64,000 bases of DNA from Gemmatimonadota bacterium (GTDB taxonomy: Bacteria; Gemmatimonadota; Gemmatimonadetes; Gemmatimonadales; Gemmatimonadaceae), in NCBI GenBank assembly GCA_003134685.1, contig PLCA01000016.1, positions 361,988 through 425,987 of the forward strand, in the 5' to 3' direction. The stretch's first letter is position 1, and every line of letters begins with the position of its first letter. A program made the translations under genes and the position numbers. This document shows, in pieces, positions 8,436 to 13,825 of the stretch. A model generated the notes under the pieces. That model searched no databases. It was not told the DNA's origin and worked only from the letters and a program-made list of their open reading frames with translations.

Positions 8436-8474
8436 TGTAAGATTTTAGCCCATGAAACCCAACGAACTCACCAT
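8436..8474 (+). repeat. Promoter/start-codon direct repeat, right copy (OPT gene start)
   Basis: TAAGAT (8438-8443), 8 nt, then ATGAAACCCAAC (8452-8463). It matches 7163-7201 at 33 of 39 bp. Because ELTIRSLILG right after it is the normal N-terminus of OPT transporters, this copy is probably the original and the RCC1 copy the derived one. Confidence 0.75.
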
Positions 8475-10425
8475 ACGCAGCCTGATTCTCGGCGCGCTCA
8501 TCACGACCGTCTTCACCGCGGCCAACGTCTACCTCGGCCTAAAGGTCGGCCTCACCTTCGCCTCGTCGATCCCCGCGGCGGTGATCTCGATGGCAATCCT
8601 GAGCGGCTTCAAGGACTCGTCGATCCTCGAGAACAACATCGTCCAGACCGTCGCCTCGGCGGCCGGCACACTCTCCGCGATCATCTTCGTTCTGCCGGGA
8701 CTCGTGATCGTCGGCTGGTGGACGGGTTTCCCCTTCTGGCAATCGTTTTTCATCTGCCTGAGTGGTGGTGTGCTTGGCGTGGTGTTCACGATCCCGCTCC
8801 GGCGCGCGCTGGTGACGACGTCCGATCTGCCTTACCCGGAAGGCGTTGCGGCAGCCGAGGTGTTGAAGGTGGGATCGGGCACGCGCGGCGAAACGAAGGA
8901 CGATACGGGCGAAGCGAAAGAAGGACTCCGCGCCGTCATCCTCGGCTCCGTCGCCTCGGCAGGGCTCGCGATTGTGAGTGCGACGCGCGTCATCGGCGCT
9001 GGATTGGGGGGCGTCATTAGCCTGGGAGGTGGAGCGTCAACCGGGTACGACATCGCGTGGTCGCTCGCGCTGCTCGGCGCGGGCCATCTCGTTGGACTGT
9101 CAGTTGGACTCGCGATGCTGGTGGGCCAGGTGATTTCGTGGGTGATCGCCGTCCCGATTCTGACGCACATGCAGCCCGCCGCCGCGGGCGTGTCGCTGGC
9201 GGATCATACGATTGGGATCTGGCGCACGCAGGTGCGATTCCTCGGCGCCGGCACGATCGCGGTCGCCGCCGTCTATACTCTGGTGAGGCTGGCGAAGCCC
9301 GTGATGGGCGGACTCGTGAGCACACTCGTCGCTTCTCGCGCCGCGATCACGGCGGACGACACTGACCGCGACATCTCGCCGCCGTGGATTTACGCGCTGA
9401 CGGCCGCGTGCCTCATCATCACCGCGTGGCTGGCATACACGTTCGCGAAATCGACGGTGCTGGCGCCGAGCGCGATGAAGCTGACGTTGATCGCAGTCCC
9501 GTTCGTGCTGATCATCGGCTTCGTGATCGCCGGTGTGTGCGGATACATGGCGGGCCTGATCGGCGCATCGAACAGTCCGATCTCGGGGGTTGGGATTCTG
9601 TCGATCGTGATCTGCGCGTCAGTGATCATCCTCGCGGTAGCGCCGACGGTGGACACGCGACAGGCGCTGGTGGCATTCGCGCTATTCGTGACGGCGATCG
9701 TCTTCGCGTGCGCGACGATCTCGAACGACAACTTGCAGGATCTGAAGACCGGCCAGCTCGTGGGCGCGTCGCCGATGCGTCAGCAGATCGCGCTCATCGT
9801 CGGTGTGGCGGCGGGTGCGTCAGTGATTCCGTTCGTTTTGAATCTGCTCGCCAAGGCGTACGGGTTCGCGGGCGCGCCGAACATTGGCGTGATCGCGGCG
9901 AATCCGCTGCCGGCGCCACAGGCGACGCTGATCTCCGCGCTCGCGCAGGGTGTGATCGGCGGGCACCTCGAATGGAAGATGCTCGGCATCGGCGCGGCGG
10001 TTGGTGTGGGGCTCGTTATCCTCGACGCGGTGCTCGGCGTGATGAAGAAGATACGGATACCGCCTCTCGCCGTAGGCATCGGGATTTATCTGCCGATGTC
10101 GGCGACGTTCGCGGTGATCGTGGGCGCGGTGATCGCGCATTGGTATGATAGGCGTAGTGCATCGATGCCGAACCCGGATCGCGCCCAAAGACTGGGGACG
10201 CTGGTGGCGTCGGGGTTGATTGTCGGCGAGAGCATTTGGGGCGTGATCAACGCCGGGTTGATCGTTGGGTTCTCGAAGGACGCACCGATCGCGCTCGTGC
10301 CGGAGAGCTTTGCGCCCGCGCCGTGGCTTGGGGTGATCGGGTTCGTGGGCGCGATTGTCTGGTTGTACGGGTGGATGCTGAGGCGGTCGGCCGCAGTGCC
10401 GTCAAGCTCGAGCGACCGAGGATAG
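8452..10425 (+). CDS. OPT family oligopeptide transporter
   Basis: 657 aa, almost entirely hydrophobic with about 14-16 membrane segments. The N-terminus NELTIRSLILGALITTVFTAANVYLGLKVGLTFA (in parts) and LPYPEGVAAAEVL match prokaryotic OPT proteins, which import oligopeptides or metal-chelate peptides with protons. The start has no Shine-Dalgarno; a TAAGAT box 8 nt upstream suggests a leaderless mRNA. It is the last gene before the accessory patch, and the sequence downstream abruptly becomes more AT-rich. Confidence 0.9.
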   Translation: MKPNELTIRSLILGALITTVFTAANVYLGLKVGLTFASSIPAAVISMAILSGFKDSSILENNIVQTVASAAGTLSAIIFVLPGLVIVGWWTGFPFWQSFFICLSGGVLGVVFTIPLRRALVTTSDLPYPEGVAAAEVLKVGSGTRGETKDDTGEAKEGLRAVILGSVASAGLAIVSATRVIGAGLGGVISLGGGASTGYDIAWSLALLGAGHLVGLSVGLAMLVGQVISWVIAVPILTHMQPAAAGVSLADHTIGIWRTQVRFLGAGTIAVAAVYTLVRLAKPVMGGLVSTLVASRAAITADDTDRDISPPWIYALTAACLIITAWLAYTFAKSTVLAPSAMKLTLIAVPFVLIIGFVIAGVCGYMAGLIGASNSPISGVGILSIVICASVIILAVAPTVDTRQALVAFALFVTAIVFACATISNDNLQDLKTGQLVGASPMRQQIALIVGVAAGASVIPFVLNLLAKAYGFAGAPNIGVIAANPLPAPQATLISALAQGVIGGHLEWKMLGIGAAVGVGLVILDAVLGVMKKIRIPPLAVGIGIYLPMSATFAVIVGAVIAHWYDRRSASMPNPDRAQRLGTLVASGLIVGESIWGVINAGLIVGFSKDAPIALVPESFAPAPWLGVIGFVGAIVWLYGWMLRRSAAVPSSSSDRG

Positions 10426-10498: not shown

Positions 10499-10530
10499 TG
10501 CATATACTGCGAGAGTTTGCAGTATATGCA
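10499..10530. repeat. Perfect 12-8-12 inverted repeat
   Basis: Arms TGCATATACTGC (10499-10510) and GCAGTATATGCA (10519-10530) are exact reverse complements around the 8-bp asymmetric spacer GAGAGTTT. The site is AT-rich in a GC-rich genome and has no T-run after it on either strand, so it is not a simple terminator. The geometry is that of a dimeric operator or of a tyrosine-recombinase core site (lox/FRT sites have 13-8-13). It lies at the left edge of the accessory patch. Confidence 0.6.
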
Positions 10531-10673
10531 CATCAGTCAAACTCCTGGCATGTGTGTAAATAGTGAATCGAGCGGAAGTTGCAAGCTTGCAGCCTGTCGC
10601 CCCGAGTTGTTATCTCGCACTGGCTTGGCAGGTTGCGTTTTCTCTGCAGCATAAACACGTAGCATAATTACTA

Positions 10674-10680
10674 GTTAGGC
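10674..10680 (+). other. Lone integron-type core GTTAGGC
   Basis: GTTAGGC fits the GTTRRRY core cut by integron integrases. It lies 15 nt before the small membrane-protein gene, as the upstream core does in cassette arrays. I find no RYYYAAC partner within 150 bp upstream, so it could be an attI-like site, an eroded attC or chance. Confidence 0.35.
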
Positions 10681-10695
10681 GGACAGGACTCGACC

Positions 10696-11046
10696 ATGAT
10701 CGCTATCCTCAGTGCAATAGCTCTTGGTGTGGTGCTCGGCTTAGGCGCGTCGCATGCGCTGTTTCTCGGCCTGTGGACGCTTTTGCCGTGGGGGCTGGGT
10801 GGACTGGCGTTGGGATACGCGATGCCGCGGCGGCCAGCTATCGAGGGAGCGATCTTCGGCTTCGTCCTGTGCTTTACGTTTATGATGGCCGGCTACACTG
10901 GGAAAGCGTCCCTCCTCAGTCGCGTTCCCTTTTTCGCTCTCATTGGCGTAGTGGGCGCAGTCTGCGGCATGATACTCAGCGCCAGCGGGGCGTGGCTCAA
11001 GCGGACGGTCGCGCGCGCACACGGCTCGTCGGCCGGTGCCGCCTAA
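10696..11046 (+). CDS. Small membrane protein in a cassette-like setting
   Basis: 116 aa with three to four hydrophobic segments (about 1-20, 25-40, 50-65 and 78-98) and a basic tail. No family is recognised. The setting is notable: a GTTAGGC core lies just upstream, and the stop codon TAA is inside GCCTAAC, the R'' box of a complete attC-like site (11041-11133). This is the arrangement of an integron gene cassette, a single ORF followed at once by attC. A cassette gene usually has no promoter of its own, and I see no convincing one. Alternatively it is an ordinary small membrane gene. Confidence 0.6.
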   Translation: MIAILSAIALGVVLGLGASHALFLGLWTLLPWGLGGLALGYAMPRRPAIEGAIFGFVLCFTFMMAGYTGKASLLSRVPFFALIGVVGAVCGMILSASGAWLKRTVARAHGSSAGAA

Positions 11047-11133
11047 CGAACGTTGCAGCAGACGGGCGCGACCAAGTCGTTGGGTTGCGTATGTTCGAGA
11101 AGAATCGCCCGCAGCTGAACTTGGGCGTTAGGC
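11041..11133 (+). other. attC-like integron recombination site (93 bp)
   Basis: R'' GCCTAAC (11041-11047) and R' GTTAGGC (11127-11133) are perfect inverted partners. The inner boxes pair too: L'' GTTGCAGCAGACGGGCG (11052-11068) with L' CGCCCGCAGCTGAAC (11106-11120), leaving an unpaired G in L'' as expected for an extrahelical base. The centre (CGCGACC...GGTTGCG) can form a variable terminal stem. Order, spacing and size match bacterial attC sites. No integrase gene is in the window, so this would be a cluster of attC without integrase (CALIN). Confidence 0.7.
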
Positions 11134-11413: not shown

Positions 11414-13639
11414 ATGCCAAATCGCACGCTCACGCTCCCGCTCCCTGCGCTCGCCCTGCTGCTGGCGACCGCTGCCCAGGCACAGACCGAGTACTACCGC
11501 CATTCGGTCTTCGACAACAGCCTCGAGCGCGACTTCTACTACTACAGCTTCGCGCAGGCCACCGCGCCGAGCAGCCTCGAAGGGAAGAGCGGGCGGTTGC
11601 CCGTCGACAGTGTCCACTCCCTCTCACCGCCTAACGCGCTGCGCATCCACTGGCTGTCGATGCCCGGTGGCGGCTGGGATGCCGAAGTGCACCTCAACAA
11701 TTTTCGGAATCGATCCCCAGGACTGACGGGGCGCACGCTCTACTTCTGGATCTATTCGTCAACGGCGATCTCCGCGGTCGACCTGCCCAACCTCATGCTG
11801 TCGCAGGCGCGCGAGGGACTTCAGGTCGCGACCTTCCCAGGCAGCTTCACCGCGCCCGAGCCACTCGGCCGCTTCATCGGCGATCTGCCGGCGGACACGT
11901 GGGTTGAGGTTCGCGTCCCTATGGAACTGCTGCACAGCGCGTCCGTCTATCCATTCATCCTGGAGCAGCTCCAGAGCGTCGTGTTCCTTCAGGGTCGCGC
12001 CGACGGCGCCGAGCACACATTGCTCGTGGACCAGGTGCACGTTGGCGACGAGCCGTCGTCGGCGGCGAAATCGCTCGTGCTGCCCCCCGTGCGCGTGACG
12101 GCAAAGGGATATGAACGCCACGTGGTGCTGGAATGGGGGGCGGACGCCGGACACGTGGAGCCCGCGGCACACTACGTCATCTACCGGTCGCAGGATGGCG
12201 GCGCGTACCTCCCCATCGGGATCCAGGTGCCGGGCATGCACCGCTTCGTGGATTGGCTGGGACGCACGGGAGCGACCGCCAGCTATCGCGTCGCCGCCGC
12301 CGACTGGAGCAACCGCACATCCGCGCCGTCGTCGCCCGCGACAGCGTCCACGCGCGCGATGAGCGACGACGAGTTGCTCACGATGCTTCAGGAAGCCGCC
12401 TTCCATTATTACTGGGAGGGCGCCGATTCGAGCTCCGGTATGGCACACGAGAACATCCCAGGCGACGACCGCATCGTCGCAACGGGCGCGAGCGGATTCG
12501 GGATCATGGCGTTGCTTGCAGGCGTCGATCGCGGCTTCATCACACGGGTGCAAGGTCTCGAGCGTCTCACGAAGATCGTGAACTTCCTTGGGGCGGCCGA
12601 CCGGTACCACGGCGCGTGGTCGCACTACATGAACGGCGCGACAGGTCACACGATGGCAGTCTTCGGCATGCTCGACGATGGTGGCGATCTCGTGGAGACC
12701 GCGTTCCTGATGCAGGGGCTGCTCACCGCGCGGCAGTACTTCAATGGCACGAGCCCCGCCGAGCGCTCGCTCTGCGACCGCATCACTCGTCTGTGGGAAT
12801 CCGTCGAGTGGGACTGGTACCGCGACGCGACGCAGCAGCAGGCATTCATCTACTGGCACTGGTCGCCGAAGTGGGGATTCCAGATCCATCACCCGCTGAT
12901 CGGCTTCAACGAAGTGCATGTCGTCTACCTGCTTGCCATCGCGTCGCCGACGCACGGCGTCCCCGCGAGCACGTACTACTCGGGGTGGGCGAGCCAGGCG
13001 CCGAGCGCGCAGTCGTATCGCGAAGGATGGTCGGGGAGCACGGACGGGAACCATTACGGCAATGGCAAGAGCTATTTCGGCATTCCGCTCGACGTCGGCG
13101 TCGGCACGGGCGGGCCGCTGTTCTTCGCGCACTACTCGTACATCGGCGTCGATCCGCGCCAACTGCACGACAAGTTCACGTCATCGTATTTCCAGAATTT
13201 CCGCAACATGGCGCTGATCAACCGCGCGTACTGCATCTCCAACCCGAAGCACCAGCTCGGCTACGGCGCGGACGCGTGGGGGCTCACCGCGAGCGACGGC
13301 CCGTCGGACTATGTGCCCCACGCGCCGGACGACGCACACGACACGGGGACGCTCACGCCGACGGGAGCGCTTGCGTCCTTCCCGTACACGCCCAAGGAAT
13401 CAATGGCCGCGTTTAAGCACTACTACCGCGACCTCGGCGTCGAGCTGTGGGACATCTACGGGCCGCGCGACGCGTACAATCCGGGCTCAAACTGGGTGTC
13501 GCCGATCTACATGGGGCTCAACCAGGCGCCGATCGTGGCGATGGTCGAGAACTATCGCACGGGATTGCTGTGGCGAACGTTCATGTCCAATGCCGAGATG
13601 TCCATCATGCTCGAGAAGCTCGCCGCCGCCAGCAGATGA
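11414..13639 (+). CDS. Secreted GH144/PF10091-type glucanase (glucoamylase-family protein)
   Basis: 741 aa from the ATG at 11414, which gives a clean signal peptide (cleavage after AQA). An earlier in-frame start at 11333 would add 27 residues with no signal character. Residues about 24-230 form a beta-rich carbohydrate-binding-like domain, about 235-320 a fibronectin-III-like domain, and about 330-741 an (alpha/alpha)6 catalytic domain with [41 protein letters not shown] and [13 protein letters not shown]. These are typical of PF10091 proteins, whose characterised members (GH144) are endo-beta-1,2-glucanases. The likely role is extracellular or periplasmic glucan degradation. It is followed by integron-like sequence. 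Confidence 0.82.
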
Positions 13640-13659: not shown

Positions 13660-13716
13660 CTCTAACGTCGTGTTAGGTGGACATCCCCGGGCGACCTGAC
13701 GTCCAACGCGTTAGGC
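13660..13716 (+). other. Probable second attC-like site (57 bp)
   Basis: CTCTAAC (13660-13666) and GTTAGGC (13710-13716) can pair as outer boxes (one mismatch plus a non-consensus first base). Inside, GTTAGGT (13672-13678) can pair with ACCTGAC (13694-13700), and CCAAC precedes the right core. Size and order fit a short attC, but pairing is less regular than in 11041-11133. Confidence 0.4.
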
Positions 13717-13741: not shown

Positions 13742-13825
13742 GCCTAACGGTGCTTGCTGCTGACGAGCGGCTTGCGGAAGTTCGCTGCGCTAGCAATGAT
13801 GTGGCGCTCGCAGCAGATGCCGCCC
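13742..13825 (+). other. Partial attC-like site lacking the right core
   Basis: GCCTAAC (13742-13748) is followed by TTGCTGCTGACGAGCG, which aligns with the left half of the 11041 site (GCCTAACG, TTGC, GC, GACG and GCG shared at equivalent positions). A matching inner box CGCTCGCAGCAG (13805-13816) is present. The expected GTTRRRY after it is missing; the sequence runs into CCGCCCAAAGG. It looks like an eroded attC just before the SnoaL-like gene. Confidence 0.4.

Follow-up and report, generated by a model that had tools for sequence, protein, structure and literature searches.

The window analysed here, a stretch of 64,000 nucleotides from the genome of a member of the Gemmatimonadaceae (G000), contains an integron without an integrase, in which an attI site, a gene cassette and an attC site follow one another and no intI gene accompanies them. 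We consider it probable that the attI is a fixed satellite site that was once served in trans by an integron integrase, IntI, and that is now frozen by the loss of intI. The host of this integrase-less integron is a soil bacterium. The earlier note, made from the letters of the window alone, had read the site as belonging to an integron cassette. As far as the attC-bearing end of the cassette is concerned this was right, but the picture was incomplete: missing from it were the attI at 10499-10680, the exact limits of the cassette (10675-11127), the disappearance of intI from another locus of the genome, and the swap of cassettes at this attI between the genome and a sister species, G380.

The attC site lies at 11041-11133 on the forward strand and consists of R'' (11041-11047), L'' (11053-11059), a variable terminal structure, L' (11114-11119) and R' (11127-11133). 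Read from the sequence, R'' GCCTAAC and R' GTTAGGC are complementary at 7 of 7 positions and fit the attC cores RYYYAAC and GTTRRRY. L'' TTGCAGC pairs with L' GCTGAA and leaves one extrahelical G at 11055, the unpaired spacers are 5 and 7 nt long, and the TAA of the ORF at 10696-11046 falls within R'', at 11044-11046. The perfect outer partners, the inner boxes with their one extra G and the stop codon inside R'' had been noticed before, and all three stand. The bottom strand of an attC is the strand used by IntI. The bottom strand of the window site folds at -22.1 kcal/mol (z -3.87), equalled by 0 of 200 shuffles, and the top strand gives a z of -2.14. The site is functional-looking, and it may be competent for recombination by IntI through its folded bottom strand.

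A covariance-model search, proposed in the earlier note as a check, was carried out with a model (R1) built from 19 attC sites in arrays of other Gemmatimonadota, none of them from G000. Across the 3.63 Mb of G000, an assembly that is 98.4% complete, the window site scores 57.7 bits (E 3.3e-11 in the whole genome). This is the score of a true attC, and it ranks the site tenth among 25 attC at E < 1e-5, the next match reaching 21 bits. The 25 sites occupy six loci, namely three arrays (C4:266159-276081, C1:428839-438421 and C1:474302-476088) and three lone sites (C12:340070, C5:353406 and the window). In an alignment of 42 attC from G000 and its relatives, which was fitted to the structure, 90.7% of pair cells hold standard pairs, against only 20-36% after shifting the partner by 1-3 columns. 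The genome collection has six contigs with an exact 25-base piece of the window attC, and each of them comes from a Gemmatimonadetes/Gemmatimonadaceae MAG. A search of plasmids returned no similar site that spanned the greater part of this attC, and Rfam at gathering thresholds returned no match. Chance inverted repeats and transcription terminators can mimic attC, and GTTAGRC heptamers taken alone occur in the window about as often as expected by chance (8 observed, 5.6 expected). Such mimicry is nevertheless contradicted by the E-value of 3e-11, by the 24 sister sites and by homologues of the cassette gene that lie between attC sites, and no T-run follows the hairpin; we give this explanation practically no weight. 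The window site at 11041-11133 is a genuine attC.

Cassette 1 measures 453 bp from crossover to crossover (10675-11127, forward strand), and the 7-mer GTTAGGC at its left end and the GCCTAAC of its own R'' are reverse complements. Between the crossover points there is a single short ORF (10696-11046, forward strand) with a 116-aa hydrophobic product, P0001, which is probably a membrane protein and for which neither Pfam nor NCBIfam gave a family above cut-off. Homologues about 50-56% identical to it were found in 7 sampled genomes. In two of these, G145 and G113, which belong to two other genera, the homologue is flanked on both sides by attC sites located with R1 (L053 1334-1474 and 1843-1984; L054 1332-1472 and 1843-1981). 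Because these homologues sit between two attC, we take the window ORF to be an integron cassette gene. In G136 (G136:C39, L052 1492-1848) no attC turned up in the neighbourhood of the homologue. That copy is apparently an ordinary chromosomal gene adjoining one that, from a reading of its sequence, we take to be guaB-like, and the cassette gene may derive from it.

To the left of the cassette, positions 10499-10680 are a complete attI, whose motifs and spacing match those of the attI downstream of intact intI genes of the same genus. Those genes are followed first by an inverted repeat and then, at a distance of about 200 bp, by short repeats ending in GTTAG. In the window the distal element (10499-10530) is a perfect 12-bp inverted repeat, TGCATATACTGC / GCAGTATATGCA, and the proximal attI (10646-10680, forward strand) consists of the repeats GCAGCATAAACAC-GTAGCATAATTACTA and then the crossover core G/TTAGGC at 10674-10680. 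The proximal attI is identical at 28 of 33 positions to the attI at the former intI locus of G000, and the latter is identical at 25 of 33 to the attI found 248 bp 3' of the intact intI in G276. Similar distal repeats lie shortly past the intI stop at L043, L046, L028/L041, L045, L047, L081, L089 and L187, within the genus and family. A role for the distal inverted repeat is only suggested, since an automatic search after every intI gave mixed results that were clear in the genus and part of the family and not in distant families. Binding of IntI and integration are predicted for the window attI.

Clusters of attC sites lacking an integron integrase are known as CALINs (PMC8618304, PMC12444791), and one proposed route to their formation is off-target insertion (PMC8618304), by which IntI would have put the cassette into an arbitrary attG, leaving a lone attC without a real attI. 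The left flank of the window cassette, however, has a distal inverted repeat and proximal repeats that are homologous to intI-adjacent attI, and it has this attI in common with G380. Off-target insertion is contradicted by this homology, and we regard it as highly improbable.

The left anchor for comparing the locus between genomes is an ORF for a 657-aa membrane transporter (8452-10425, forward strand), which from a reading of its sequence we take to be an OPT-type oligopeptide transporter. Its orthologues were found in 7 genomes of the same genus, at 98-99% identity in G380 and 83-95% in the others. Only G380 among them shows the window attI downstream of the gene; no attI of this type was found there in G093, G350, G396 or G332, and the contig of G061 ends inside the gene. 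Between window positions 10000 and 10677 the alignment with G380 is unbroken at 91% and ends in the GTTAG core, and past the crossover G380 continues with another insert, of 379 bp, that carries an attC of its own. The attI has been in place since before G000 and G380 split, and its first cassette has changed. The presence of different cassettes at one crossover in the two genomes is what would be expected of an attI.

Insertion of a circular cassette places the R' half of that cassette at the left boundary. Among 13 attI junctions, for which one attC start was adjusted by one base by eye, the variable triplet at the left boundary equals the R'' triplet of the cassette itself in 12 (1.5 expected; 0 of 200000 shuffles). 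The attached R' matches the left-boundary triplet in only 3 of the 13.

On the right side, homology with G380 picks up again at window position 13813. Between the attC and this point lies a segment with a glycoamylase-domain gene (11414-13639, forward strand; 741 aa; Pfam PF10091, E 5e-66), and the G380 locus lacks this segment. In relatives the gene has only distant homologues, which made it of no use in the search for empty sites, and the transporter gene served instead. The right limit of the array is set by a probable attC remnant without R' (13742-13817, forward strand), with an R'' GCCTAAC at 13742-13748 and an R1 score of 21.1 bits at 13755-13817 over model positions 15-85. The glycoamylase segment is possibly a large and partly eroded second cassette. 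Past the glycoamylase gene there is also a weak hairpin at 13660-13716 (CTCTAAC ... GTTAGGC), possibly a second, short attC-like one, whose R'' does not match the left boundary of the cassette.

A complete integron has an adjacent intI, and none was found in the window region or in the whole of G000; the earlier note had described a cassette layout in a region without integrase, and this description also proved accurate. The recombinases left in G000 are XerC/XerD-like ones and a 27-aa IntI C-terminus. This relic lies on contig C1 (L040 10956-11036, reverse strand) and is followed by attI, a cassette and an attC, with three more attC on its opposite side. Relic and attI are orthologous, at 91% identity, to a locus of G380 with a nearly complete intI. 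The G380 gene is interrupted by a frameshift and by an assembly gap, so that this lineage has yielded no intact IntI; the G380 assembly is 86% complete. By this orthology, intI has been lost at the C1 locus in G000. Within the phylum sample, 139 of 395 genomes have an intI above the curated cut-off. In the Gemmatimonadota loci examined, including L043, L088 and L091, intI, attI and array are co-directional, with attI past the intI stop. At these three and at L046, L047 and L081, intI reads toward attI and the array, in contrast to the classical divergent layout.

Leaders without an integrase also head other arrays. Leader A, a conserved stretch of about 190 bp, stands before first cassettes (L127 786-989, L138 1010-1215 and L039 9570-9762); it begins three other loci of G000 and is present in G380 (three copies), G291, G332, G061 and G425. 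No intI was found within the approximately 1.5 kb examined around these copies. Where more than one species has leader A downstream of one and the same host gene, the first cassettes differ. The core of leader A, CTAATAGGCGTTAG, is similar to CTAATTGGCGTTAG, the attI core that follows intI genes in G306 and G246. We read the copies of leader A as integrase-less attI sites at fixed loci in several related genomes; leader A could also be a regulatory RNA.

Loss of an integrase from beside the window attI deserves separate consideration. The window locus could be a decayed complete integron, from which intI was deleted in cis after all cassette movement had taken place, the two species keeping different leftovers of an ancestral array. 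Just such a deletion is seen at C1, where the IntI C-terminus was left behind, and genomes of the genus can hold more than one complete integron, as G276 does. At the transporter locus, however, both G000 and G380 are without intI and their homology is unbroken through attI, and any loss of intI here would therefore predate their split. In addition, their first cassettes differ with exact crossovers, each left end carrying the R' triplet of its own cassette, and the other attI copies at fixed loci are likewise without intI in several genomes. We consider a decayed integron unlikely. Our main doubt is that an intI beside the window attI could have been deleted before G000 and G380 split, in which case the difference in cassettes could stem partly from the ancestral array. 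The damaged state of the G380 intI and the incompleteness of the two assemblies also weigh against the satellite reading.

In the satellite reading, which we prefer, a complete attI (10499-10680) is fixed downstream of the transporter gene, where it carries the 453-bp cassette ending in attC. The attI repeats, and the bottom strand of the cassette attC in its folded form, would have been bound by an IntI encoded elsewhere in the genome, which would have joined the circular cassette at G/TTAGGC. The intI gene has since disappeared from G000, save for the 27-aa relic at its original locus, and as a consequence the window cassette would now be fixed unless a new IntI arrives. We infer the trans action of IntI, which IntI was involved and the competence of the sites; trans action is favoured by the lack of intI at the transporter locus in both species and, in the DNA examined, beside the leader A copies. 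The odds lean slightly towards a more general statement, that in some Gemmatimonadaceae one IntI serves several attI at different loci, that these landing pads outlive species splits, and that loss of the one gene freezes them all. If this is true, a single integrase is able to run multiple landing pads spread over a chromosome, and G000 and G380 would be a natural pair of genomes, one without intI and one with it, for testing the consequences of an end to integron activity.

Integrase-less arrays have mostly been read as debris or as the result of off-target insertions. Their mobilisation in trans is already known (PMC12444791, PMC9668308), and attI has been described as adjoining its integrase (e.g. 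PMC9668308). The attC and cassette of the window are ordinary and of a known kind; what would be new is the satellite attI sites, and we found no description in the open-access literature of several conserved intI-less attI acting as landing pads. Like a CALIN, which is mobilisable in trans in principle (PMC12444791), the window has an attC and a cassette without a neighbouring intI. Unlike one, it is headed by an attI that is conserved at the same locus in the sister species, and its one full attC and one 21-bit remnant would fall below the threshold of at least two attC without a nearby intI that is used with IntegronFinder (PMC12444791). The CALINs of Xanthomonas are also integrase-less arrays at fixed loci across species, with intI at one other locus, and in the passages about them no conserved attI is reported, whereas the window array is headed by attI and its cassettes differ between species (PMC12444791). 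Cassettes of the Delta-attI type in mobile integrons resemble the window in having attI-derived sites that lie away from the intI platform and can be recombined by IntI, but theirs is a truncated attI within a resistance cassette, and that of the window is a full attI heading a chromosomal array (PMC12901181). Sedentary chromosomal integrons in which intI reads toward attI are known from Treponema (PMC3607928), and an attI downstream of intI is known from Archaea (PMC9668308). The Gemmatimonadota loci L043, L088 and L091 are like these in that intI, attI and array share one direction, and the window locus differs in having no intI.

Two further observations concern the other arrays. Leader A includes a terminator-like hairpin with compensatory changes (AAAGGCCGCG..CGCGGCCTTT versus AAAGGCTGCG..CGCAGCCTTT). 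The array of four attC on contig C1 of G000 (L144 8660-8760) has no leader and starts, after an acetyltransferase-like gene, with a half attC made up of L' and R' only.
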